Below the pieces are notes generated by a model. It made no database searches. It was not told the origin of the DNA and was given only the letters and a program-made list of their open reading frames with translations. Shown here piece after piece: positions 23,773 through 54,876 of a stretch of 64,000 nt of DNA. The first letter of the stretch is position 1. Each line of letters opens with the position of its first letter. This DNA comes from Spirulina sp. CS-785/01 (GTDB lineage Bacteria; Cyanobacteriota; Cyanobacteriia; Cyanobacteriales; Spirulinaceae), in NCBI RefSeq assembly GCF_028330525.1, contig NZ_JAQMSD010000148.1, forward strand, positions 1-64,000, read 5' to 3'. The position numbers were made by a program, and so were the translations under genes.

Positions 23773-24966
23773 TCATAAAGATTCAGGAAAAGAAGAGCTA
23801 GATGATAGATTGGGAGATATGAAGGAAAGTATGGTCAACACTATCGCTACTGTTATAGATGCTAACAAAAAACGTAAACCTATACACCACCTTTCTTTAA
23901 TAACAAGATTATTATCTAATGATTCATCAAAAACTGTACCTTCTGGATATATCATAATTGCTAAGAATCTCAATATAGAGCCGCATATTATAGCAATTGA
24001 AATGCTATTAAGTCCTGTGATTCCACTCGATACAGCACAAACTGCTCCAAACCATATAGAAGCCAATGTAATATAAATTTTACTCACATTAACTCGCTCA
24101 GGATATCGATTGAAGCTAATTACAAGTCTTGGAGATATCAAACTAACTACCCACAATAATACTAAGAAGAGAAATAAAGTCCATTCTTCAAATAAAGAAC
24201 CTGTTCCATAAAAATAGTCTGGATAATCCCTCAAAAAATCAAACAGTAATGCGTAACAAAACAGCCAGAATATTAATTTTATAATTAAGAAAACTATACT
24301 TTTAAGTATCTCTAAAAAACTTCTTTTGCTATTTTGTTTTGATTGTGTTCGTATCCCTCTTGTTTGACTTTTTTTTACAGGTTTTCCTGCTTTTAAAATT
24401 TTGATTGCTTGCGAAGTTAATTCTTTGGTCTTTTGCAACTGTGATTTGAGTGTCTTTATATCTATCTTAATCTTGTCATTAGTTTCTGATTCTTTATTTT
24501 CTTGATCTGAAACTTCTGATTCTGGAAACTCTAGTTGATAATTATAATTGACAACTATAATATTTATAATATTTATTTCTTTCTTTTGAGCAACTGTGAC
24601 TTCTTTGAAAAAAGAACGAAGAGCCTTATCATAAGCTTTGGAAACCCAATCCCCAAACGCTCTTGCTGCCTTACTTTGTTGATTGAAAAACTCTATTAAT
24701 TGATCCTTAACACTTTCTGTATAAGCAGGAAAACTTTCACCCACTTTGTCTATTTTTTGCATTACTGTATCCGTACAAATGGGAGTATCTGCCGAAATCA
24801 AAATAATATCTTTCTCATAAGCATAAATTTTGTCTTTCCCCGTATTAACTTTATATCCATTTCCTCTACGCCTTTCATCAACATAGACGATTTTACCACA
24901 CCGTTTAAATTTATGAATGAAGCCAACAGTTTCATCTACTTTGTATCTAGGTTGCTCTTTAGCCAT
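23773..24966 (-). CDS. Multi-pass membrane protein with N-terminal SH3-like segment
   Basis: 397 residues from the ATG at 24966, which has a GAGGT site at good spacing; an in-frame ATG at 24984 is six codons longer and less likely. Residues 1-60 (YKVDETVGFIHKFKRCGKIV, then YKVNTGKDKIYAYEKDIIL) look like a small beta-barrel that reads as a tudor/KOW-like module. Residues 60-200 are helical and charged, and four to five membrane segments fill 215-395. No family was recognised. The gene is markedly AT-rich relative to the helicase beside it, and stands alone. Confidence 0.7.
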   Translation of the reverse strand: MAKEQPRYKVDETVGFIHKFKRCGKIVYVDERRRGNGYKVNTGKDKIYAYEKDIILISADTPICTDTVMQKIDKVGESFPAYTESVKDQLIEFFNQQSKAARAFGDWVSKAYDKALRSFFKEVTVAQKKEINIINIIVVNYNYQLEFPESEVSDQENKESETNDKIKIDIKTLKSQLQKTKELTSQAIKILKAGKPVKKSQTRGIRTQSKQNSKRSFLEILKSIVFLIIKLIFWLFCYALLFDFLRDYPDYFYGTGSLFEEWTLFLFLVLLWVVSLISPRLVISFNRYPERVNVSKIYITLASIWFGAVCAVSSGITGLNSISIAIICGSILRFLAIMIYPEGTVFDESLDNNLVIKERWCIGLRFLLASITVAIVLTILSFISPNLSSSSSFPESL

Positions 24967-24984
24967 ATTTTTTACCTCACACAA

Positions 24985-25336
24985 GATTTATTTACCTAGT
25001 TTTACGGTTTGATATTTGATATCTCTTTGTTTTTAATTTTATTCTGAATTTATTTATTGACTCAGAGTAATCATACTGAATTATTGACTCAAACCATCAC
25101 TTTTTCCTTAGAGTGTAGCAGAGAAATATGTAATCGGCAAGGTAACTTCTTTAACAAAATATATAATTTTTGAAGTTGTAGGGTGCATTAAACGGATGTT
25201 CAGTTGTTCAGTTGTTCAGTTGAACGCACCACACCCTTTGGCCTTGGGTGGATATCATGTTGGATGAGTGGTTCGACATTTTCCACCCAACACACATTAT
25301 ACTGGATTTAAGTAAACCCACACCCCATTCTAATCC
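24985..25336. repeat. Non-coding gap with GTTCAGTT triplets and a hairpin
   Basis: AT-rich, no gene recognised. It contains three to four tandem GTTCAGTT units (about 25199-25223) and an inverted repeat built on TTGGGTGGA and CCACCCAAC (about 25244-25296), similar in sequence to the hairpin at 16678. Confidence 0.5.
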
Positions 25337-25588
25337 ATGTATCAAGTTACTTTAGAATACGCCAAACAACACTTAGAAGAAATTTTAGAACGCGCTAAAA
25401 CGGAACCCGGTGGAGTTGTCATTGTGCAGAATGACCAGAATTTTGTCTTGATGAGTCAAGACGAACTAGAGTGTTGGACAGAAACCCAAGAATTACTCCA
25501 AGACCCTCATTTATTATCAGACATAGAACAAGCACACAAGGACTATGAAGCAGGAGATATTTTCACAATGGAACAAGCGTTGAGATAA
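25337..25588 (+). CDS. Phd/YefM-type antitoxin, no toxin adjacent
   Basis: 83 residues. The N-terminal YAKQHLEEILERAKTEPGGVV, then VLMSQDELECW, is the Phd/YefM fold (dimerising, DNA-binding), and the tail (LLSDIEQAHKDYEAGDIF) would wrap the toxin. No RelE/Doc/PIN toxin follows; the next gene is a broken methyltransferase 33 bases downstream. It may be an orphan antitoxin, or may now serve as a regulator of the neighbouring locus. Confidence 0.8.
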   Translation: MYQVTLEYAKQHLEEILERAKTEPGGVVIVQNDQNFVLMSQDELECWTETQELLQDPHLLSDIEQAHKDYEAGDIFTMEQALR

Positions 25589-25621
25589 AATTTAAGATGG
25601 TTTCCGTGAATAGACAGAATA

Positions 25622-26470
25622 ATGAAAAAATTTGGACAAGATCACATTGTATTCTTAGGAGATACCTTAAAAATACTGGAACAAGAAATAGAAAACCAAA
25701 GCATTCATTTAATTTTTGCTGATCCTCCCTATAATATCGGCAAAAAATATGTCAATACAACTGATAAATGGTCAGATAAAGATATCTTTTTAAATTAGTG
25801 CTATCAATGGCTTGAGTTATGTCTCAAAAAACTACGCCCCAATGGGACAATATATTTAATGTGTAGTACCCAATTTATACCATACTTGGATATTTACTTA
25901 CAAGATAAAATTCAAATATTATCGAGAATTATTTGGCATTATGATAGCTCAGGAGTGCAGGCTAAAAACTATTTTGGCTCTTTATATGAACCAATTTTAT
26001 ATGCCGTAAACAACCCAAATTGCTACACCTTCAACGCTGAAGCAATTAAAGTAGAAGCTAAAACTGGAGCAAAACGGAAATTAATTGATTATCGTCAACC
26101 AACCCCCACCGTTTATAACTCCAAAAAAGTCCCTGGTAATGTGTGGTATTTTCCCAGAGTGCGCTACCGTATGGCAAAATACGAAGACCACCCCACTCAA
26201 AAACCAGAAGCTTTGTTAGAACGAATTATTTTAGCCAGTAGTAATGTAGGAGATACAATTCTCGATCCCTTTGCAGGGACATTTACAACATCCGCAGTGG
26301 CTCAGAAACTGAGTAGAAAATCTATTGGTATTGAAATTGAAGAAGACTATATCAAAATTGGACTCAGACGTTTAGGGATTATGACCCATTATCAGGGTGA
26401 GTTATTACAACCTCCGCAAAAAAGTTATAAAAAGCCAGAACATAAAACAGGTCAACTGAAACTTTTTTAA
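25622..26470 (+). pseudogene. DNA methyltransferase (beta-class order) broken by an internal stop
   Basis: The frame from the ATG at 25622 carries the catalytic motif ADPPYNIGKKY (about residue 32) and is interrupted at codon 59 by a TAG at 25796-25798. It resumes in the same frame as CYQWLELCLKKLRPNGT and runs to 26470. The rest contains YDSSGVQAKNYFGS, HPTQKPEALLERII and the SAM-binding DPFAGTFTTSAVAQKL, then IGIEIEEDYIKIGLRRL. DPPY before the SAM motif is the beta-class order. By analogy with relatives the lost residue was probably Trp (TGG to TAG). Translation could restart at 25859, but that piece lacks DPPY and cannot methylate. Total 282 codons. Confidence 0.88.
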
Positions 26471-35604: not shown

Positions 35605-36861
35605 TTACCGATTAGCTGCTGCTTTACAGAATACCTCAATATACTGACGATGGCCTTGGGGAAAAACCACATTTAAGGTTAAAGGATCATCAGTGTCTCT
35701 GGAATCACCTGGGCCTTCTACTGCTTGGGTTGTGCCGTTTTGTTCGACTAATTTAATGGGTTTCCGGTTTTTGACTTCGCCACCAGAACTATCAATATAA
35801 ACCACTAAATTGCCTGTATTGAAGGTGTTGCCGATATCTTGAATGAGTTGGAGAAAATTGCGATCGCTGCCTCCCCGACGCACATCGAATTGGCCATTAT
35901 TATCAATCACGGTACTATTCACCGTATCCCCCACCCCCACCATTAACGGCATTTCTGCGGGATCAAAATTCTTCTTAACCATCTCTAACAATGCTTCATG
36001 ATCCTTCGGCGTTTCTCGCACACTAAACTGTTCTCCCAAGGGATATGTTCCAGTGCGTTGGCCATAGTAACGATTGAGAATTGCTAACACTCCCGCTTCT
36101 TTAATCGCCCCCCGTAACATAAACTGAAAATCCGTTGTGCCGGAGTCCGTTGGGGTAGCAGGCCGCAGAATTTCTAACCCTTGGTCATCTCGCCCTAAAT
36201 TGGGAGCATAATGGACAAAGAAAGAGTCTGCGAGTCCTTGTTGGGCCGCATCAGTGAGAAGTTGCTGCATGAGTTGGTGCATGGCTTGTTGTAAGTCCAT
36301 ATACACCTGGGGACGATGACTCAAATGTTCATAAAAAATGTTTAAATTGGCCGTCGGTGAGACTTTATTATCTAACACCGAGGCATCTATACAAGTTTGT
36401 AAAACTGAAGGGTCTAAAACCTCAGATTGTTGGGTAAAAAACTGTTGCAAGCACTGTTCAATTTGTTGGGGAACGGCTTCTAAAAACTGCATTTCTGCAT
36501 CCGTCACACCGGGGTGAGAGACATTCCCCTGACGGTCTTGCCATTGAACTCCCCCAGCCGCTAAACCCGGTAAATATAAGCCTTGTTGTTGGAGGGTTTG
36601 GGGGTCGGCATTTTTCTCGATAATGCGGTTAACCCCTCTCGTCCCAATATGTTCCCCATTGGTGAGGACGTAAAAATGACCATCAAAGGAACGGGTGGCT
36701 TTAACATAATTGAGATCAATTTCCCGGGTTAGCGGGTTTTTGACCAACCCCATACACACCCCATCGAGGTCTTGAATGATTAACAGGTTTTCGGTTTCAG
36801 TCCAGAGTTGTTGTAGGGTGTCGTGGTCGAGGGAGAGGGCGGTTTGATGTAAAGCGGTCAC
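35605..36861 (-). CDS. stpA: Glucosylglycerol-phosphate phosphatase
   Basis: 418 residues, close to the 422 of Synechocystis StpA (GgpP). It dephosphorylates glucosylglycerol-phosphate to the osmolyte glucosylglycerol, the second step after GgpS. Recognisable stretches are LLIIQDLDGVCMGLVKNPL (an HAD-type DxD), HFYVLTNGEHIGTRGVNRI, GLYLPGLAAGGVQWQDR, SVLDNKVSPTANL, SFFVHYAPNLGRD, FQFMLRGAIKEAGVLAILN, VGVGDTVNS and VVYIDSSGGEVKNRKP. No ggpS is in view. The gene implies salt acclimation through glucosylglycerol. The 200-base gap at 36862-37061 contains nothing recognised. Confidence 0.95.
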   Translation of the reverse strand: MTALHQTALSLDHDTLQQLWTETENLLIIQDLDGVCMGLVKNPLTREIDLNYVKATRSFDGHFYVLTNGEHIGTRGVNRIIEKNADPQTLQQQGLYLPGLAAGGVQWQDRQGNVSHPGVTDAEMQFLEAVPQQIEQCLQQFFTQQSEVLDPSVLQTCIDASVLDNKVSPTANLNIFYEHLSHRPQVYMDLQQAMHQLMQQLLTDAAQQGLADSFFVHYAPNLGRDDQGLEILRPATPTDSGTTDFQFMLRGAIKEAGVLAILNRYYGQRTGTYPLGEQFSVRETPKDHEALLEMVKKNFDPAEMPLMVGVGDTVNSTVIDNNGQFDVRRGGSDRNFLQLIQDIGNTFNTGNLVVYIDSSGGEVKNRKPIKLVEQNGTTQAVEGPGDSRDTDDPLTLNVVFPQGHRQYIEVFCKAAANR

Positions 36862-40692: not shown

Positions 40693-41520
40693 CTATCGCT
40701 TTTCTAAGACCCACGCTACAACACAGAGGGCGATTCCTGCTGCAATGAGTAAATATAAACCGATACCAACTTCTATAGAAGAAGAAACCATTGCTCCAAA
40801 AGGATTATCATCACTCATATCAGACACGATGCTATTCAAATCAGAAATTTTCCAGAGTCCAATAAATGCAGCGAGTCCTGCTGGAATGGTTGCCCCTAAA
40901 CGAAAATTTCCGACTAAGGGAGTTAAGCGATCGCCCCGCAAGCTCAAGACAATAGCAGGTATAAATAAAATTAGGGTGATCCATCCATCTCCCCTTGCAC
41001 CAGAAACACTGCCTACCATTGGAGCATGAAGCCAAGGGAGAAAGGTGGCCAAACACCCAAGGATAGCTATTCCTAAAATTGCCAGTCTTTGTTTGTGGAA
41101 TGCTTCTAACAGTTGAGTCAATCCAGTGTTACCTTGACTGATTTCACTGGAAGTTTTGTAATTTTTTTGTAAACGCTGACTATTGTGTGATGAGGTAGAG
41201 CGATTATTGGTTTGAGTTTTTGCTGATGGGAAATCAATTGTTTGTTGCCAGATTGTAGTAGGTTGGCCTTTCTTTTTAGCATGAAGCTGTACGGTTTGTA
41301 GTTTTGGACTATTAATTTTTGTGAGTCCTTGGCGCACCAAATTGGTCATTGCGTCTTGAGCAGGGACTTCTTCACCTTCCAGCATCAGGTTCAAACATCC
41401 CTCTTTGAAAGAGTATTTCACGACTTGAATCTTTTTTGTCTTGAGAGATTGGTTGATGAGGGTAGCGATCGCTTTTGCATTACCCTGTTTGGCCTGTTGG
41501 ATGAGTTGTGGTTGTGTCAT
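40693..41520 (-). CDS. Membrane protein with cyanobacterial N-terminal domain
   Basis: 275 residues. Residues 1-85 (IQQAKQGNAKAIATLINQSL, then KKIQVVKYSFKEGCLNLMLE, then LTKINSPKLQTVQLHAKKKG) form a small domain found at the N terminus of various cyanobacterial proteins. A Ser/Gln linker follows, and four membrane segments lie at about 150-272. The start is 51 bases after the Hsp70-like gene stop on the same strand, so it is probably the third gene of that operon. Role unknown; it would anchor or sense at the membrane. Confidence 0.75.
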   Translation of the reverse strand: MTQPQLIQQAKQGNAKAIATLINQSLKTKKIQVVKYSFKEGCLNLMLEGEEVPAQDAMTNLVRQGLTKINSPKLQTVQLHAKKKGQPTTIWQQTIDFPSAKTQTNNRSTSSHNSQRLQKNYKTSSEISQGNTGLTQLLEAFHKQRLAILGIAILGCLATFLPWLHAPMVGSVSGARGDGWITLILFIPAIVLSLRGDRLTPLVGNFRLGATIPAGLAAFIGLWKISDLNSIVSDMSDDNPFGAMVSSSIEVGIGLYLLIAAGIALCVVAWVLEKR

Positions 41521-41570
41521 GGCTAGAAGTTGATAGAGGGGTGACTATTATCTGAGCATTCCTTTGGTTT

Positions 41571-43112
41571 TTATGTATCTCGCCAATCACCTGTCACACT
41601 CAAATTTTCTTTATTTTTTCCAGAAAAATACAAATCCGCTAAAATGCCTTCAATTCCTTTTTTATATTCTGAAGAAGTGGGCTTTAGATTTAAAGAATCT
41701 TGCAATTTTGGTAACTGAAAATCAGGCATTTCATAGTTAGGTATAGATAAACCAAAGGCAATCGTGAAACGATGAGAATACTTTGGTTTTATACCATTCA
41801 TTTTGAAATTTTCAGGAGACTCTTTAAGAGTAACATCTTTAAATTTTAAAGGACAATAATCATTTGAGCGGTACTGTTTAAATGCTGTATAAGTAGACTC
41901 AATCGCATAACGGTAAAATTTAGAATCACATCCTCCTCCACCTAGCAAAATTTCTCCGTTAGTATTTTTGGAAATCAATGCAGTTACTAAATGAATTGCT
42001 CGCTCCCATAACATCAACTCTAATAACATTCTTGTATTATTACTAGAGATTTTAATTTTTTCTTGATCAATGGCTTTTTGGGTAATATAACGACTAGGAA
42101 CATAACTAAGCTCATAATTCTGTAATATTGCTTGATCTGCACTTGCGATAAATTCTTTTTGTTTAGGCTGAATGTCAAACGTTTTAATTAAAGCACTTAT
42201 TTGATCCGCTAAATCTTCATAATCGCCATTTAGCAAATTTTGTACCTTTTCAAAAGGGATTTTAGATTCTGAAGCAATACCATAAGCTATAGCATCTATA
42301 CCAATTGGAGGAGTATAGGCTTTGATTGCAGAAATATTAGGTAATCCTCCTTCAATACCAAGATGAAACGAACAAAATTCAGTTGTTCCACTTCCAATAT
42401 CAACGTATAGAAATTGTCCTTCTTTTCGTTCCCGTGATGTTGCATAAAAGTAAGTACCTGCTGCTACTTCTGGTACAGCAAAACAAGGGATTTGGTCATC
42501 AATCTTAGATGTAAGGGTTTGAGTAACTGCTTTTAAGTCAGAAAAAGTTAATGAATCTAAATCCAATTCCTCAGTAAGCAACCATGCTATACGCAATACC
42601 CGTTCAAAACAAGTTAGGCTAGGAGAATTGCAATATTGTACAGGTACGCCTACGTTAGCGCTCCATTCTAATTCTCGATTTTTAATTCGTTGAGGATATT
42701 TTTGGCAAAACCAATTTTTAACCTTTTTTATCACTTGAGCTAAATAGTAAGCTCCTAAGTTTTCTAAATTTTTAGGCAAATTTAGATTATCACCTTTGTA
42801 TTGAGGGAGTGGACTAAACTCAAATAAGTGGTTTTGTTGGGGTAGATCAATATTTGCTAAACGCATTTTTAGAAAATTTACCTCAAACATATTAGGAGAT
42901 TTACACTTATCCCATTCTGGTTTAGTTAACCCTGCTAATAGTCGTCCATTACTTAAAATTCCAATCTTAGATAATAAAAATGTACCATCTAACGATAAAT
43001 CTTTAAAAACAACTATTTCAGATTGCTCTGTGTCATTGGCTTGAACACAAATTTTGCTAAAACTTGTTCCCCAGTCAATCCCAATATTGATACTTAATGT
43101 TGAATTAGACAT
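41571..43112 (-). CDS. Hsp70/actin-like ATPase encoded with a SNF2 helicase
   Basis: 513 residues. The actin-like ATPase fold is shown by phosphate-1 INIGIDWGTSFSKICVQ (residues 8-24), phosphate-2 LYVDIGSGTTEFCSFH (about 240) and the adenosine motif ILLGGGGCDSKFYRYA (about 395). There is no separate substrate-binding domain of DnaK type after it; the C terminus is short. Its ATG lies inside the end of the upstream helicase gene (8-base overlap), so both are made from one message in linked amounts. An Hsp70-like partner could gate or switch the helicase. AT-rich like the helicase gene. Confidence 0.85.
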   Translation of the reverse strand: MSNSTLSINIGIDWGTSFSKICVQANDTEQSEIVVFKDLSLDGTFLLSKIGILSNGRLLAGLTKPEWDKCKSPNMFEVNFLKMRLANIDLPQQNHLFEFSPLPQYKGDNLNLPKNLENLGAYYLAQVIKKVKNWFCQKYPQRIKNRELEWSANVGVPVQYCNSPSLTCFERVLRIAWLLTEELDLDSLTFSDLKAVTQTLTSKIDDQIPCFAVPEVAAGTYFYATSRERKEGQFLYVDIGSGTTEFCSFHLGIEGGLPNISAIKAYTPPIGIDAIAYGIASESKIPFEKVQNLLNGDYEDLADQISALIKTFDIQPKQKEFIASADQAILQNYELSYVPSRYITQKAIDQEKIKISSNNTRMLLELMLWERAIHLVTALISKNTNGEILLGGGGCDSKFYRYAIESTYTAFKQYRSNDYCPLKFKDVTLKESPENFKMNGIKPKYSHRFTIAFGLSIPNYEMPDFQLPKLQDSLNLKPTSSEYKKGIEGILADLYFSGKNKENLSVTGDWRDT

Positions 43113-46100
43113 GATTTTTCTCCTCGATAAAGATTAATCCTGCTGCTAATGTAGGATTTTTTTCTGTAATTGTACGTTTTTGATCGATTTTGTCTAGAGT
43201 TAGTTGCAAATTTTGCTGTAACTTAGAGATTTGACCTTCAAAGGCAGGAATCACTTTAGTTTTATTTTCTGCCTTTAAAGTTTTGATTCTTTCCTGTATT
43301 TCATATATTTTGCGTTCATGAAAGCTCTTAGCTTTATTTTCTTGAACATTGCACCAATCCTCATTTTCTTTTTTAAAGTCTTCAGATGCTTCAAAAAATT
43401 CATCTTGTAAAAGCTCATCACAATGATCATAGAGTTGTAGTATTTTTTCAAAATCTTCAATTAAGTTCTTGGCATTTGTGCGTTGTTTCCCTTGTACTGA
43501 AATAACAGAGATTAATTCTTCAGCTAAACTATTAGATAAACATTCTTGATCCTCCAAACGCATAATTTTCTGAACTAACTTATTTTCTTGACGTAACCCA
43601 TCAAACTGCCAAATTTGTATAATATAAACATAAATTCCAATAATAAGTTCACTATCAATTATTTTTGCTTGTTTATCAGTCAGTCTTAGAGCAGAAACCG
43701 GATAAAATGTTTGTTGGTTAGACTGATATTGATTTGCTATCCATTTAATTAAAGGATGACTTGGATCGAGTAACTCCCAATTTTTGCGCCCTACTGTATC
43801 AGAAATTTTCGGATCAAAAAAGCAAGTTACTGTACGATTAGGTATATGAAGTGATGTTTGTACTGGTAGCTTCTTGTCTTGGCAAAATAATTTTAAGCTA
43901 TTTTTTGCTTCATCAGCTAGTTGTATATCAAAAACATGATTTTGATCACTTTTAGGTTTTATAATTGTTCCAGGATATTGAATTTGAAAGTAATCATTAA
44001 CAAAGCTTTCTAACTCTTCTGGTTTTAACCATCGTCCTTTGCTACGACTTTTATTGATATAGTCAAATATATAATCAGAAAAAGCGACTAAATTAATTGC
44101 TTCATTCTCTAACTGTCTTTGCTGTGAAATTTGATAAGTAATTGCCCGAATTTTTTGTTCTTCTAATTTTTGTCGATCTGATTTATTGAGATTAGGATTA
44201 AGAAGCTCAAGGAGTAGTTGTTCTGTGAGATCTCCTAAAATTTCTTCAACATCACCAATACTTTCTTTAAAAATATTTATCCTTTCGTATAATCTTTCTA
44301 AAATACGTTCTTCAATAGTATCAACCAAACTAAAATTAATGATTGAAATATTTTTTGCTGTCTGTCCAATACGATCTAACCTTCCAATCCTTTGCTCAAC
44401 ACGCATGGGATTCCAAGGTAAGTCATAATTAATTAAGACTCGACAAAATTGTAAATCAATCCCTTCACTTCCTACTTCGGAAGATAAGAGAATTGGAATT
44501 TGAGAGTTATTCTTAAATTCAGCAAGAATAGTTTGTTTTTCTTCTCTTTTCATACCACCTTGAATAAGGCAGCTTGTTATTTGATCTTCATTTAATCTTT
44601 TTTTAAGATAGTGTAATGTACCTTTAAAATAAGCAAATAAAACAAACTTTTCTTTTGGATGCTTTGAGAGTTGATCTTTTAAAAACTCAATAAGTTTCTT
44701 GTATTTAGTGTCATTATAAATTAATTCATTAATATCTACATCGTAATCGAAAGAAAAGTTAGAATCATATTGTCTTGATTGGTTAGGCAATCTGCCAAGG
44801 TCTTCCCAGAAAAATTCACCACTTTCATCATATTCTGATTCATTATCTAAAAAATCATTAAGTTTATCTTGTTTTTTCCAAGACTTCAATGCAGCAACCA
44901 TACAACTAGCCATCTGTCGCTGTCGTGCAATTAAACTAAATACAGCTACCCCTCTTTGTCCATAAGCTTTTTTGCGAATACTTTGAGTAACTTTAGTATA
45001 AATTTGTTTTTCTAATTCTGAAAAGTGGACACTAAGAACCTGTGGTGAACGTTTAGCTCTTTCCATTACATCACGTTTGCGAGTTCGGGTCATGTATTGA
45101 CCAAATAGAGAAGAACTTTCTAAAATTTGAGCATATTTAACTTTAGTTTCCTCTGAAAGGAAACCATTTTTTAATTGCTCAAGTTCTGAAGCAACTTGTT
45201 TTAACCTAGAGTTATTAGAAAAGTATTGTGATTGTAGGGCTTCTTCAATTGCTTGTTTGGCTTGATTGATTTTCTCATCTGACTCACTATCTAACGCACT
45301 AGATATATTCCAAATTAAACTTAAAGCCTGAATAATAGGTCTATTTGCGTCTAACATAGATTGAAAATTAAATGAGTCATAAAAATCTTCAGGACTAATC
45401 AAACGTAAAAGTTGATATAAGTTATCACTACGAATTTGAATGGGAGTAGCTGTTAACAAAATCAAATGTTCTGAAGCTTCACGGAAAAGACGAGCGAGCT
45501 TATTATTAGCTGTTTCTGGATTTCGTAAATAGTGCGCTTCATCAAAAATGACCAAATCAAATAACTTTGTTTCTTGCGTGCTGTATTGATTTAATAAGCG
45601 AGCTAATTCTGCTCTTGTTCCTTTTGTTTCTTGATCATCCCAATTTTTGGGAGGTCTTGTTCCCTCTAAACTAGCTACATATATGAATGAATGAGGTTGA
45701 CCAGTTTTAGAAAAATTTTGTAATTTATTGAATAATTCCTTAGCTTTTAAAACTTCGGCATAAAGATTAAATCTATTTTTTAAGTCATTAACCCATTTAT
45801 CTCTAAGCATAGATGGACAAATAATTATTAATCGCCTTGCATCTTCTCTAGCTTGTATTTCTTTCCATATATACATTGATTCGATTGTTTTACCCAAACC
45901 GACTTCATCTGCAATTAGTATGCGCCCAATGGGGGAATCTAAAAATTTCATTACAGGTTTAAACTGATAAGCATAAAAGTCTGTATTACTAGACTCCATG
46001 CTATAAAAGACATTAGTAAGATGTCCTTTAACTTTTTCAAAGGTTAAAATTTGTCTTAAATTACTAGGTTTACCGTAAATTCCTTTTTTAAATAAATCTC

Positions 46101-46302
46101 TAAGACTTTCTTGATCTAGACAAAGCTCTAGGTCTTTGTATTTTTTGCGAGCAACTTCATTAGGACCAAAACGAATTTCTACAATTAGCCCTTGTGGATG
46201 CTTTCTGGTTTTACCTGTAGTGACTCCTTCACGGCCACTATTTGTTAGGCGAACTCGTTGATTAGGGACTTCCGGATTCCAAGATAATTCTTGATTAGAC
46301 AT
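43105..46302 (-). CDS. SNF2/RapA-type helicase, accessory
   Basis: 1065 residues. The SNF2 core: Walker A ADEVGLGKT (131-139), CPSMLRDKW, DEAH in VIFDEAHYLRN (254-257), LTATPIQ (about 282), then GSEGIDLQFCRVLINYDLPW and QRIGRLDRIGQ (about 635-645). A long helical C-terminal region (700-1065) ends in coiled coil. The layout is that of the long SNF2 helicases found in prokaryotic defence loci, with no nuclease domain visible. It is AT-rich relative to flanking core genes, consistent with transfer. First gene of the operon helicase-Hsp70-like-membrane protein; the start is 18 codons into a normal upstream region. Confidence 0.88.
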   Translation of the reverse strand: MSNQELSWNPEVPNQRVRLTNSGREGVTTGKTRKHPQGLIVEIRFGPNEVARKKYKDLELCLDQESLRDLFKKGIYGKPSNLRQILTFEKVKGHLTNVFYSMESSNTDFYAYQFKPVMKFLDSPIGRILIADEVGLGKTIESMYIWKEIQAREDARRLIIICPSMLRDKWVNDLKNRFNLYAEVLKAKELFNKLQNFSKTGQPHSFIYVASLEGTRPPKNWDDQETKGTRAELARLLNQYSTQETKLFDLVIFDEAHYLRNPETANNKLARLFREASEHLILLTATPIQIRSDNLYQLLRLISPEDFYDSFNFQSMLDANRPIIQALSLIWNISSALDSESDEKINQAKQAIEEALQSQYFSNNSRLKQVASELEQLKNGFLSEETKVKYAQILESSSLFGQYMTRTRKRDVMERAKRSPQVLSVHFSELEKQIYTKVTQSIRKKAYGQRGVAVFSLIARQRQMASCMVAALKSWKKQDKLNDFLDNESEYDESGEFFWEDLGRLPNQSRQYDSNFSFDYDVDINELIYNDTKYKKLIEFLKDQLSKHPKEKFVLFAYFKGTLHYLKKRLNEDQITSCLIQGGMKREEKQTILAEFKNNSQIPILLSSEVGSEGIDLQFCRVLINYDLPWNPMRVEQRIGRLDRIGQTAKNISIINFSLVDTIEERILERLYERINIFKESIGDVEEILGDLTEQLLLELLNPNLNKSDRQKLEEQKIRAITYQISQQRQLENEAINLVAFSDYIFDYINKSRSKGRWLKPEELESFVNDYFQIQYPGTIIKPKSDQNHVFDIQLADEAKNSLKLFCQDKKLPVQTSLHIPNRTVTCFFDPKISDTVGRKNWELLDPSHPLIKWIANQYQSNQQTFYPVSALRLTDKQAKIIDSELIIGIYVYIIQIWQFDGLRQENKLVQKIMRLEDQECLSNSLAEELISVISVQGKQRTNAKNLIEDFEKILQLYDHCDELLQDEFFEASEDFKKENEDWCNVQENKAKSFHERKIYEIQERIKTLKAENKTKVIPAFEGQISKLQQNLQLTLDKIDQKRTITEKNPTLAAGLIFIEEKNHV

Positions 46303-50760: not shown

Positions 50761-53700
50761 TTAACGCAACCCCGCACAAGTAAACCCAGCCCAATAGTAA
50801 GGATGAGCAAAGGGGAATTCCTCTTGCACTAAGCGTCTCAGACTTTTTCGCACTTGGCGGTTACTGAGACTGACTGACCGTTTGCGGGTTTCCTCGGCTT
50901 GGCGAAACCGTTGCTCTAAAAATGCCTCTAGGGTGGGCTGATACTCCTGTGCAAGGGTGTCTCCTGTGAGGGTGCGGAGGGTGCTTTGGGCGTGTTGGAG
51001 TGCTGCCGGACGACAAGCCCCTTGATGACGGTAGCGGTGGTAGAAGATGGAAAAGAGGGCGGTGGCGATGTCGTCAACGGCCCATAAACTGCTGATCACG
51101 CTTCTGGCCCCAGCACAGAGAAACCCTGTGGATAAGGTGAGGAGATCATCGCTAATTTCTGCGACTCCTAACCCGGTTTCACAGCAGGAGAGGAAGACTT
51201 CGGCGAGGTGGGGGAGTCGCCAAGCGGGGGTCATGAGTTGCCCCAAGGTAATGGTCCCATCGCCGAGGTGTAGGGTAGATTCTAGGGGTTGATCTAGGCG
51301 GGTTTGGGCGTGGTGACTGGCGAGGAGGACGTTGATCTGTTGTTGTTGGAGGAGGTGGCGATAGTTGTGGACGGTGGCTTGGCTGCGGCCTGTGAGTCGG
51401 TGGGTGGGGGGGATGTTGTAGAGGGTGGCGACTTGTTGCCCTTCAAATTGGGCGCAGGGGAGGTCTTCGGTGGCATCTTCGATGATGGCGTAGTTTTGGG
51501 CGGTGAGGGGGGGCCGTTGGTGGCAAAAGTCGAGGACTTGGCAACTGGGGAGGATGCGGAGGAGGAATTTGTCGCTGAGGTGGTAGTTGGGACGCAGGGG
51601 TAAGGCGGCCCAGGGAATTTGATGGAGGTAGAGGTGGGGGATGATGATGAGTTCTTCGATGGTTTGCAGATATTGTTCAATGAGGGGGTTGAGTTGTAGT
51701 CGTTGGGCGAGTTGGTGGAGGAAGGGGGGGATTTGTTGTTGCCATTGTAGCTTGGTTTGGGGGGCGGCTTGGGGTTGACAGGCTTCGGCATAGGGGGTTA
51801 ACCATTGGTTTTCAATCCATGTTTGCAAGGTTTGGTAGTTTTGGTCGGGGAGGGGGTAGTGGTGAATTTGGGTTTGGGTGACGATGAAGATATAGGTGGT
51901 GTCGAGGGTGGTGTAAAAGCTGAGGATGGCGGTGGTGCGGTGGTCGATGAGGGTTTGTAGGTGGTCTAGGGTGGGGGTGTGGTTGTGTAGTTGTCCGGCG
52001 AGTACGGGGTCGAGGTGGCGTATTTCTTGCCAGAGGTCTTGTTTTTCGACTTCTAGGTTGTTGATGCTATGGTTGAAGGCGGCGAGGGCGGCACGGTTGG
52101 CGGTTTGGGGGGTTTGCTGGTGGGGGTGGAGTTTTTTGCGGAGGTTTTGGGCCCGGAGACGGACGCGATCAATTTGGCGTTGCAGTTGGTCGAAGCGGTG
52201 TAGGGTGTTTTGGAGATGGGGGGGGAGGTTGTCTTGGGGGGAGAGGGTTTGACTGGCCATGAGTTCGACGAGGTAGCGGGATCGGGATTTTTCGCTGTAG
52301 AGGAAGGCTTGCTGGGGTTGGCCGTTGCGGATGAGGGCTTCGATGAGGCTATCGTAAAGGGGGGTGGTTTGTTCTCGGAGAATTTGCCGGAGGTCGTCGG
52401 TGAGGGTTTGGCTGTAGATGTGGTCTGCGGCTTCTAGGGCGAGTTTATAGCCTTGGATGGCTTTTGACCAGTTTTGGGCTTCGAGGGCGGCTTCTCCGAG
52501 GTTACGGGCGGTTCTGAGGCAGTCTTGGGGGTGGGTTTGGGGTTGGGTGATGGTGAGGGCGGCTTGAAAGGCTGCGATCGCGCTTTCAATTTTACCATCA
52601 CTCTGATAGCTATTCCCTAGATTATTCTGCACCATGGCCCATTCTTGGGGATAGTCTTCGGGGTTATAAATTTCTAGGGCCGCTTGATAGTGGTGAATGG
52701 CAAGGATGAGTTTTTCGGGTTGCTCTTCGTATAGGCTGGAACTATAGACCTTGCCTAAGTGGTTTTGCAGAGATGCCCAGTCTTCGGGATATTGGTCACG
52801 AGTTCGCACACTTAACGCATCGTGGTAGTAAACGAGGGCTGTTTCAAGGTTTTTGGCTTCATCTCCGGTAAGGCGATCGCAATACACACTCCCCAAGTTT
52901 AATTTAACATTAGACCAGTCTTCTAATGATTCTAACTGGGCGTAAATCTGGAGGGCGTTCTGATAATATGCGATCGCTTGTTCTTGATTTTCTGCACTAT
53001 CCCCATATTGGCGATCGACATAAATCATTCCTAACAAATTTTGGAGTTTTGCCCACTGCGCTGGATAGTCTTCTTGGGTATGCACTTCTAAGGCATTTTG
53101 ACAACATTCAATGGCCATTTCTTGATTGTCCCACCAATCCTCTTGTAGTCTATCCTTATAGACAAAGGCGAGTTGATATTGTGTGTCTGCCCAGTCATAG
53201 GGAAAATACTCTCGTTGGCGTACTTCTAAAGCAATATTAAGCTCTTGTAGAGCTAATTCTAGATTATCACTTCGTTGGCCAATTTGACGAGAATAATACG
53301 CATAACCTAAGTTATGATGAATCATTGCCCAATTCAACGGATCAAACTGTTTTGAATAAGTTTGTAACGCGCTTTGGTAATGATGAATTGTTTTCTCTAT
53401 GGTTTCTTTTTTCGTCCCTTGATTAGACTGTAAATATAACGTCCCTAAATTATTATGAACTAATGCCCAAATCTCCGGATAGTTTTCAGGGGTACACCAT
53501 TCTAGAATGTCTTGATAGTGTTGTAAAGCAATTTGTTTATTTTTCTCAATTCTACCTCGTTTTCGCCATTGAAACGCATAGGCTAAGTTTAGTTTTATTT
53601 TACCAAAAATCTCTAAATCGTCGTTTGGTTGAAGCACTTTTAAAACTGACTCACAAGCATTTATGGCTTTTTGTCGATTCTTTTCTATATTGCCCTTATA

Positions 53701-54876
53701 GCTTTTTAAATAAGCAACAGATAAATTTATTTGAAGTTTAATCCAAATTCCTATAAATTCGTTTTCACTACATCCCTGTAATCCTAAATTATAAGATTCA
53801 ATTGCTTTTTCAATATTGTCTATCCTTTCTCCTTTTAATCGGTTATAATATGCCCATCCTAAATTATTATAACTCAGTGAATAATTTTCAGGGTAGTCTT
53901 CTAGGGTAAAGACTTTTAGAGTTGCTTGAAAAGCTGCGATCGCATTTTCTAAATTATCAAAACGTTCCCCTTTCAACCTCGCCATATAAGCAATCCCTAA
54001 ATCATTTTGAATTTCTCCCCAAGTCTCTTGATTTAACTCAGACAATTGATTAAAATCACAAAACTGCAACGCTCTTTGATAACATTGAATGCCTGCTTCT
54101 AAATCTTCACTACTATAATTTAATTGAAACTTTTCATAATAGCGAGACGCTAAAGCGTATTGATTCCTAAACCAATCATCCCAAAATTCTATGGGAGTAT
54201 AAACTCGTAAAGCATTCTGAAAAAGTTGAATTGCTTTTTCGATATTCTCTAACCGATCTCCAAAATTAGCATCAGTATAAAGAAATGCTTTTTCACTCTG
54301 TAACTCGACCCAATTTTCTGGATACTTGTCATAAGTAAAAAAATGTTCTAAAACCTTATATCCAGCTAAAGCAACCTCTAAATTAATATCTTCATCTCCT
54401 TGAGTAAAAAGCTGCATCACCCAACAAAAATAACTAATACACAGTGCATTTTGATAGGCTGTTTTACCGTCTTCTTCTTTTAAAACTGCTTGCACCCCAT
54501 AATGATAAAAGAAATCTCGAAACTCTAAGGTTATTTTATCCAAATTTTCTGCTAAAACTTCTTTCACCAATTGAATATAATCATTTTCTTGTTCAATAAT
54601 ACCTAAAGCAATAAAGAAAAACTCATAATAGTCTATTTTTTTGTTCAAATCTTGGTCTAAATACTCAATTACCCAATCAATCTGTTGATCAATCCATTGA
54701 TAGGATAACTGATCCTCTGCTTCTTGGTACTCTTGGGCAATATTTTGTAATAACTCTAACAGCGTATCGTCAATTAAATGACTATTATTTTGTAAAACTT
54801 GTGCCTCCTCCCCATCGGCACAACTAAATAGTTTATCAATTAACTCATTGTAGGATTCTATACTGTTAGCTTCCAT
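50761..54876 (-). CDS. Giant TPR-CHAT protease
   Basis: 1371 residues. About residues 150-860 are a long series of TPR-like repeats of the kinesin-light-chain type (ALQxY/CLGxxY pattern, unit about 50 residues: YPENWAxxQxNLGxxY). Residues about 1000-1371 form a CHAT domain, a caspase-like protease fold: the catalytic His in LLASHHAQTRL (about 1188) and Cys in VFLSCCETGLGVAE (about 1231), then SVISSLWAVDD and the C-terminal HPYYWAGFTCAG. CHAT proteases are activated through their TPRs and cleave partner proteins, as in some antiviral systems. Base composition changes within the gene: C-terminal half GC-rich, N-terminal half AT-rich. Third gene of the sigma-DUF1822-CHAT operon, 64 bases behind DUF1822. 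Confidence 0.9.
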   Translation of the reverse strand: MEANSIESYNELIDKLFSCADGEEAQVLQNNSHLIDDTLLELLQNIAQEYQEAEDQLSYQWIDQQIDWVIEYLDQDLNKKIDYYEFFFIALGIIEQENDYIQLVKEVLAENLDKITLEFRDFFYHYGVQAVLKEEDGKTAYQNALCISYFCWVMQLFTQGDEDINLEVALAGYKVLEHFFTYDKYPENWVELQSEKAFLYTDANFGDRLENIEKAIQLFQNALRVYTPIEFWDDWFRNQYALASRYYEKFQLNYSSEDLEAGIQCYQRALQFCDFNQLSELNQETWGEIQNDLGIAYMARLKGERFDNLENAIAAFQATLKVFTLEDYPENYSLSYNNLGWAYYNRLKGERIDNIEKAIESYNLGLQGCSENEFIGIWIKLQINLSVAYLKSYKGNIEKNRQKAINACESVLKVLQPNDDLEIFGKIKLNLAYAFQWRKRGRIEKNKQIALQHYQDILEWCTPENYPEIWALVHNNLGTLYLQSNQGTKKETIEKTIHHYQSALQTYSKQFDPLNWAMIHHNLGYAYYSRQIGQRSDNLELALQELNIALEVRQREYFPYDWADTQYQLAFVYKDRLQEDWWDNQEMAIECCQNALEVHTQEDYPAQWAKLQNLLGMIYVDRQYGDSAENQEQAIAYYQNALQIYAQLESLEDWSNVKLNLGSVYCDRLTGDEAKNLETALVYYHDALSVRTRDQYPEDWASLQNHLGKVYSSSLYEEQPEKLILAIHHYQAALEIYNPEDYPQEWAMVQNNLGNSYQSDGKIESAIAAFQAALTITQPQTHPQDCLRTARNLGEAALEAQNWSKAIQGYKLALEAADHIYSQTLTDDLRQILREQTTPLYDSLIEALIRNGQPQQAFLYSEKSRSRYLVELMASQTLSPQDNLPPHLQNTLHRFDQLQRQIDRVRLRAQNLRKKLHPHQQTPQTANRAALAAFNHSINNLEVEKQDLWQEIRHLDPVLAGQLHNHTPTLDHLQTLIDHRTTAILSFYTTLDTTYIFIVTQTQIHHYPLPDQNYQTLQTWIENQWLTPYAEACQPQAAPQTKLQWQQQIPPFLHQLAQRLQLNPLIEQYLQTIEELIIIPHLYLHQIPWAALPLRPNYHLSDKFLLRILPSCQVLDFCHQRPPLTAQNYAIIEDATEDLPCAQFEGQQVATLYNIPPTHRLTGRSQATVHNYRHLLQQQQINVLLASHHAQTRLDQPLESTLHLGDGTITLGQLMTPAWRLPHLAEVFLSCCETGLGVAEISDDLLTLSTGFLCAGARSVISSLWAVDDIATALFSIFYHRYRHQGACRPAALQHAQSTLRTLTGDTLAQEYQPTLEAFLEQRFRQAEETRKRSVSLSNRQVRKSLRRLVQEEFPFAHPYYWAGFTCAGLR

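Follow-up and report, generated by a model that had tools for sequence, protein, structure and literature searches.

The SNF2 helicase gene and its Hsp70-like neighbour

We analysed a 64,000-nucleotide stretch of the genome of the cyanobacterium Spirulina sp. CS-785/01 (contig NZ_JAQMSD010000148.1, positions 1 to 64,000; hereafter the window), in which a gene for a large SNF2 helicase is directly followed, on the minus strand, by a gene for an Hsp70-like ATPase. An earlier note, made from the sequence alone, had proposed that these two genes and a downstream membrane protein gene together form a candidate defence system. The three genes are as follows:

43105..46302, minus strand: helicase of SNF2/RapA architecture, 1065 amino acids, gene 1 of the pair (open reading frame call, profile searches, Foldseek, tree)
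41571..43112, minus strand: Hsp70-like ATPase, 513 amino acids, nucleotide-binding domain only (open reading frame call, predicted structure, profile alignment)
40693..41520, minus strand: membrane protein, 275 amino acids, downstream neighbour judged to lie outside the module (locus survey, base composition)

The open reading frames (ORFs) of the pair agree with those described in the earlier note, with the start of the 513-residue gene overlapping the end of the helicase gene by 8 bases. The membrane gene begins 50 bases past the Hsp70-like gene. The impression that the pair is more AT-rich than its surroundings was borne out by the GC content at third codon positions (GC3), which is 0.191 in the helicase gene and 0.198 in the Hsp70-like gene, as compared to a median of 0.466 for window ORFs of at least 200 amino acids, making these two the most AT-rich large genes in the window. 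The membrane gene, with a GC3 of 0.351, is unlike the pair. These values suggest horizontal acquisition of the pair, without the membrane gene. Promoter and terminator scans gave results no better than those on shuffled sequences.

The two genes form a conserved and mobile module

A single-sequence search of the genome contigs with the Hsp70-like protein retrieved nothing, whereas a seven-row profile retrieved 37 loci in the genome collection; adding plasmid and same-family matches brought the total to 41 loci, with one genome counted twice. In every one of the 41 loci a helicase homologue, or a reduced form of it, directly adjoins the Hsp70-like gene. The helicase is full length in 34 of them, cut by a contig end in two and split in one; among the others, two lack the helicase core, one is an N-terminal fragment and one a remnant. 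The loci come from Cyanobacteriota, Alpha- and Gammaproteobacteria and one spirochaete. Either gene may come first, and the loci with the Hsp70-like gene first form one clade (support 91/96 in the Hsp70-like tree). The converse association also holds in cyanobacteria, where five of the six genomes with the helicase carry the pair and the sixth has an Hsp90-like partner instead. No third gene recurs next to the pair except among close relatives. The gene order that the earlier note had expected to be conserved was thus kept for two of its three genes, the membrane gene being found beside the pair in no other locus among the 41.

The pairwise distances of the helicases and of the Hsp70-like proteins are highly correlated (Mantel r = 0.96 for 28 pairs, with none of 2000 permutations as high; 0.97 for the 18 cyanobacterial pairs only). 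Species history alone may give rise to such a correlation; the relatives of the pair, however, are scattered. In the trees, the window pair clusters with that of a Thermosynechococcaceae metagenome bin, and the pair of Spirulina subsalsa, a member of the window's own family, clusters with that of a different family (L071).

The pair is rare. The Hsp70-like profile matched 8 of 386 cyanobacterial genomes (about 2%), with the helicase in 6, and in the order to which the rhizobial carrier of locus L036 belongs, 2 of 397 genomes have the pair. Fischerella sp. PCC 9431, which can be cultured in the laboratory, is among the carriers. Some copies lie on plasmids, a number of them beside parA or toxin-antitoxin genes, and most copies in the genome search lie on chromosomal or unassigned contigs; a search of phage sequences gave no match. 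In one locus (L040:5286-10822) the pair forms a 5.5-kb cassette within a CRISPR array of 93 repeats (28-base repeat, 60-base period), with 87 exact repeats to its left and 6 exact and 1 near repeat to its right, in the same orientation as those on the left. Its rarity, its presence on plasmids, the lowest GC3 in the window and this insertion all point to mobility. The helicase and Hsp70-like genes are a real, conserved, co-inherited and mobile two-gene module.

The helicase has a RapA-like architecture

The following elements were located in the helicase gene:

46123..46257, minus strand: N-terminal SH3/Tudor-like beta region, residues 16-60 (predicted structure)
45880..45912, minus strand: helicase motif I, ADEVGLGKTIE (GKTIE invariant in 37 aligned helicases)
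45532..45543, minus strand: helicase motif II, DEAH (alignment of helicases)
44371..44394, minus strand: helicase motif VI, QRIGRLDR (alignment of helicases)
43450..44058, minus strand: C-terminal alpha/beta accessory domain, residues about 749-951 (locus comparison, predicted structure)
43174..43452, minus strand: long C-terminal helices, probable coiled coil, residues 951-1043 (predicted structure)

Motifs I, II and VI are intact in the window helicase and conserved across the 37 aligned relatives. RapA was the top full-length structural match (Foldseek, E = 3e-34) and, judging from motifs and predicted structure, the protein is an SNF2 helicase of RapA architecture. Since root-mean-square deviations in Foldseek were large (10-15 Å), folds were assigned here by E-value and conserved motifs rather than by superposition. 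The alignments used for structure prediction comprised the window and locus rows only, leaving out sequences from plasmid records.

The partner is an Hsp70-type nucleotide-binding domain

The 513-residue protein had no Pfam match at E 0.01, the Hsp70 family PF00012 included, and no NCBIfam, PADLOC or PDB match by sequence. Its predicted structure (predicted local distance difference test score, pLDDT, 84; predicted template modelling score, pTM, 0.85) retrieved Hsp70-family proteins as all 50 best PDB matches, and profile alignment against the genome's own DnaK proteins gave a probability of 95%. In this alignment D13, E215, D238 and T243 fall on catalytic positions of DnaK. The motifs are:

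43053..43082, minus strand: phosphate-1 loop GIDWGTSFSK, with D13 and K20 (alignment, 41 rows)
42867..42869, minus strand: K82 in a conserved KMRLA motif, probably equivalent to the catalytic lysine of DnaK
42468..42470, minus strand: E215, aligned with the DnaK catalytic glutamate (EPTAA; profile alignment, 41 rows)
42384..42401, minus strand: phosphate-2 loop DIGSGT, with D238 and T243 (profile alignment, 41 rows)
41931..41939, minus strand: adenosine motif GGG, residues 392-394 (invariant, 41 rows)

D13, G15, T16 and K20 are the same in 40 of the 41 rows, the remaining row being without that part, and D13, E215, D238 and T243, together with K82, are identical in at least 40 of 41. The role of K82 is probable, the alignment there being off by a few residues. 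By sequence conservation and by its model, the protein has an Hsp70 nucleotide-binding-domain fold with the D, E and D/T catalytic residues. The model contains no Hsp70 substrate-binding domain or lid: the fold stops with the nucleotide-binding domain, and confidence is low past residue ~470. With no substrate-binding domain, the Hsp70-like protein is not a complete chaperone.

Proteins of the clade with the Hsp70-like gene first carry a conserved N-terminal hydrophobic hairpin (YAEYAAVSASVAGAIAA...APLSVAAALNL) and a coiled-coil extension (hairpin N-termini in L006, L014-L017, L020, L021, L023, L025-L028 and L038). These proteins are possibly membrane-attached.

A sister clade with an Hsp90-like partner, and helicases without a core

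Helicases with 27-28% identity were found in genome G028 (L068) and on plasmids of Methanomethylovorans (L074), Ensifer (L088) and Rhizobium (L089). They form one clade, next to that of the Hsp70-partnered helicases (support 91/88 and 100/99; some branches are long). Each is directly followed by a homologous protein of 1034-1113 amino acids, and the two of these that were scanned both match a sacsin/Hsp90-like domain:

L068:8369-14864; L074:8001-14485; L088:8875-15195; L089:8851-15187: sister helicase with Hsp90/sacsin-like ATPase

The motor is common to both clades and is paired with either of two unrelated ATPases of chaperone type. The Hsp90-like half is less surprising, since SNF2 helicases beside MORC-type GHKL ATPases were described in 2008 (PMC2292703); for an Hsp70-like partner of an SNF2 helicase we found no counterpart in the literature searched.

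In several cyanobacterial loci the gene beside the Hsp70-like gene has been reduced:

L018:7605-8978 (ESFC-1); L019:3362-4798 (Spirulina sp.); L065:6499-8004 (G121); L066:6642-8276 (G197): core-less derivatives beside the Hsp70-like gene

These genes code for 457-544 amino acids in which the SNF2 helicase core is gone and the C-terminal alpha/beta domain is kept; three of the four (L018, L019, L065) also retain the N-terminal SH3 region. The Hsp70-like tree places L065 as sister to the window (100/95) and joins L018 and L019 in a separate group (99/100), so that the core was probably lost at least twice. A tree built from the C-terminal domain does not allow the core-less forms to be placed, their branches being very long. 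The Hsp70-like gene of L066 is broken as well, and the core-less forms may be decaying or specialised. They amount to natural deletion mutants: because the accessory domains persist beside the Hsp70-like gene, they are the likely interaction surface with the Hsp70-like protein.

The pair in defence loci

In L032 and its relative L033 (HmaB and HmaC identified in the former, and by homology in the latter), the pair lies directly after HmaB and HmaC and before a candidate defence gene, PDC-S68. It is next to Hachiman in L073 and next to type IIG/DrmMI-like methylases in L042 and L045; in L005 an MkoB-like gene and HsdR lie within about 12 kb, and in L006 the pair lies ~250 bases past the end of an array of ~90 repeats that adjoins type I-D cas genes. 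Another copy lies within a complete class 1 DISARM operon (L071). The association with defence is therefore strong in cases, as a statement about individual loci and not a rate against random loci. The overlap with defence islands anticipated in the earlier note was found in part, at the DISARM, Hma, Hachiman and CRISPR loci, while most flanks are without a clear defence gene. Among the neighbours of the window pair covered by the profile search there was no HmaB or HmaC.

PDC-S68, a RecD-like helicase, directly follows the Hsp70-like gene only in four rhizobial loci, and a relative of it precedes the Hsp90-partnered helicase in L068:

L032:10400-14218; L033:10363-14217; L035 and L036:10404-14171: PDC-S68 RecD-like helicase

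Other genes of the window

Around the window pair, where the earlier note had listed two toxin-antitoxin types, a STAND protein and small membrane proteins, we confirmed a PIN-domain toxin with an upstream antitoxin-like ORF and the STAND protein (an NB-ARC/TPR protein), and saw putative small membrane ORFs. Another AT-rich islet, at 23773-26470 (GC3 0.22-0.28), holds a 403-residue protein without a Pfam match and a 203-residue N6_N4 DNA methylase fragment, and is perhaps a decayed restriction-modification unit. Near the islet lies an ordinary core gene for a glucosylglycerol-phosphate phosphatase involved in salt tolerance (35605-36861), and further on a TPR-CHAT protein of 1371 amino acids, of a caspase-like protease family (50761-54876).

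Discussion

We consider it probable, on balance, that the two genes encode an autonomous, horizontally mobile pair of ATPases serving in defence against phages or other DNA invaders, either alone or as an add-on to restriction-type systems. We infer that the helicase and the Hsp70-like protein would form a complex through the accessory domains of the helicase, in which ATP binding and hydrolysis by the Hsp70-like protein would turn the motor from restrained to licensed and back. The switch is modelled, by analogy only, on the ATP-binding Arp7/9 module, which controls the SNF2 ATPase Sth1 (PMC5969521). The idea in the earlier note that the Hsp70-like protein sets the state of the helicase is plausible. 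The licensed motor would then translocate on the invader's double-stranded DNA and strip or remodel its protein-DNA complexes, or alternatively feed the DNA to nucleases of co-resident systems.

Several observations weigh against such a role. The pair contains no nuclease, which leaves the output missing. Roughly half of the loci have housekeeping surroundings, and 97 flanking proteins from 25 other loci gave few matches to defence profiles, in a scan that yields family counts rather than per-locus rates and carries no enrichment measure; its DndA/SspA matches are cysteine desulfurases and were discounted as defence. In addition, the loss of the helicase core with retention of the Hsp70-like gene, seen in several cyanobacterial lineages, is not predicted by a purely motor-centred mechanism.

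The housekeeping flanks at many loci, together with RapA as the closest solved structure, would also fit a RapA-like pair with a housekeeping task, either the recycling of stalled RNA polymerase or the repair of protein-DNA blocks, its Hsp70-like ATPase being a co-chaperone. We find this unlikely for a pair that is phyletically scattered, is present in ~2% of the sampled cyanobacterial genomes and in 2 of 397 genomes of the L036 order, and has been found on plasmids, at DISARM and Hma loci and within a CRISPR array. To a selfish or plasmid-maintenance module, acting in stabilisation or addiction rather than against viruses, we give still less credence: plasmid copies do exist, some adjoining parA or toxin-antitoxin genes, but the majority of copies in the genome search are on chromosomal or unassigned contigs, and neither protein is toxin- or antitoxin-like in profile searches.

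A further possibility is that the helicase is the DISARM protein DrmD and the Hsp70-like protein a DISARM accessory. The window helicase scores 995 bits against the PADLOC profile PDLC02623 ("DrmD"), and in L071 the pair is flanked by the true drmD on one side and by drmMI, drmA, drmB and drmC on the other, its helicase (656 bits) exceeding the cut-off of 610 for the NCBI DrmD equivalog NF038317. The window helicase, however, reaches only 457 bits on NF038317, and in L071 a separate, true DrmD (1178 bits) adjoins the pair. The two helicases in that operon (seen in L071:4217-10654) both exceed the NCBI cut-off; since the pair helicase passes too, NF038317 over-calls. The window's genome encodes a true DrmD of its own (1132 bits) on contig C15, together with the 5' part of a DrmMI-like gene, and the end of DrmMI, DrmA and DrmB on contig C319; its DISARM system is thus split over two contigs (L096 and L091), and between drmD and drmMI lie ORFs that by eye resemble a ParA-type ATPase and an AlbA-2-type domain protein. 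In the helicase tree the pair clade stands apart from the one true DrmD included, and profile searches of the neighbours found no drmMI, drmA, drmB or drmC beside the window pair. PDLC02623 also matches the Hsp90-partnered sister helicases (407-440 bits) and appears to describe another, wider helicase clade that was named after DISARM. With a true DrmD present elsewhere in the genome, the window helicase was rejected as DrmD, and this explanation is already disfavoured and very improbable.

A three-gene system in which the membrane protein is the effector is largely refuted and the least probable of all, since the membrane gene, despite lying on the same strand after a 50-base gap, adjoins the pair in no other locus, differs from it in base composition and belongs to a large paralogous family, even if one Hsp70-like clade bears its own hydrophobic hairpin and coiled coil. 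The N-terminal domain of the membrane protein is a multi-copy cyanobacterial domain: 68 of 119 related genomes have it, often more than once. High-identity homologues among the matches listed come from G001 (77%), G009 and G011; in G001 the homologue and the pair are on different contigs, and G009 and G011 lack the Hsp70-like gene.

Returning to a mobile defence pair, we found no description of an SNF2 helicase paired with an Hsp70-like protein in the literature searched, in keeping with the view of the earlier note that no described system has such a set; the pair corresponds to no named system, and the "DrmD" profile match, which that note had missed, does not make the helicase DISARM DrmD. 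Known systems each share some of its properties. DISARM DrmD (PDLC02621/NF038317) is likewise a RapA-like SNF2 helicase of similar length, and the pair can lie within a class 1 DISARM operon, but the pair helicase belongs to a separate clade, has a constant Hsp70-like partner and needs none of drmMI, drmA, drmB and drmC. RapA (HepA), the RNA-polymerase-recycling SNF2 ATPase, has the same N-terminal SH3/Tudor region, SNF2 core and C-terminal alpha/beta domain; the pair, in contrast, is patchy and mobile, includes an Hsp70-like ATPase and has long C-terminal helices added to its helicase. Hma (HmaA-HmaB-HmaC) and BREX-related helicases also combine an SNF2 helicase with Tudor and accessory domains (PMC12839542), and the pair follows HmaB and HmaC in two loci; however, the HmaA profile gives the window helicase only 170 bits, and that study mentions no Hsp70-like subunit for BREX-related systems.

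Restriction operons with a MORC/paraMORC GHKL ATPase and SF2 (including SNF2) helicases (PMC2292703) also place a chaperone-type ATPase beside an SNF2 helicase, as in our sister clade (L068, L074, L088, L089), a comparison of architecture and not of membership; the window partner, by contrast, is an Hsp70-type ASKHA ATPase of unrelated fold. Hsp70-like conflict-system proteins, some without a peptide-binding domain, are known from CoCoNuT (CnuD) and GAP1-N2 GTPase systems (PMC11090510, PMC7159879), yet their partners are McrBC-type GTPases and HEPN RNases, or TRAFAC GTPases and tubulins, rather than an SNF2 motor, and the ATPase motifs of CnuD are degenerate whereas those of the pair's protein are invariant. 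In the eukaryotic SNF2-Arp modules (RSC Sth1-Arp7/9, INO80; PMC5969521) a member of the actin/Hsp70 superfamily that binds ATP associates with an SNF2 ATPase and regulates it; there the partner is Arp-like and here Hsp70-like, no HSA domain came to light here, no search having been aimed at one, and we draw an analogy only, claiming no common ancestry.

A bolder reading, speculative and on present evidence rather doubtful, is that these loci represent a conserved prokaryotic architecture of regulation: a chaperone-fold ATPase, of Hsp70 type in the pair and of Hsp90 type in the sister clade, would be the obligatory controller of an SNF2 DNA motor, and the whole an antiviral functional counterpart of the SNF2-Arp modules. 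Some lineages would have discarded the motor and kept the Hsp70-like protein with the accessory domains to act as a sensor or regulator.

If the pair is indeed such a defence module, a helicase family now filed as "DrmD" in defence databases would belong to a different system whose partner is unannotated, and tallies of defence systems would have to be revised. The known repertoire would gain a two-gene module able to join DISARM, Hma and CRISPR loci, and a general question would become testable, namely why ATPases of chaperone or actin fold are so frequent as companions of SNF2 motors.

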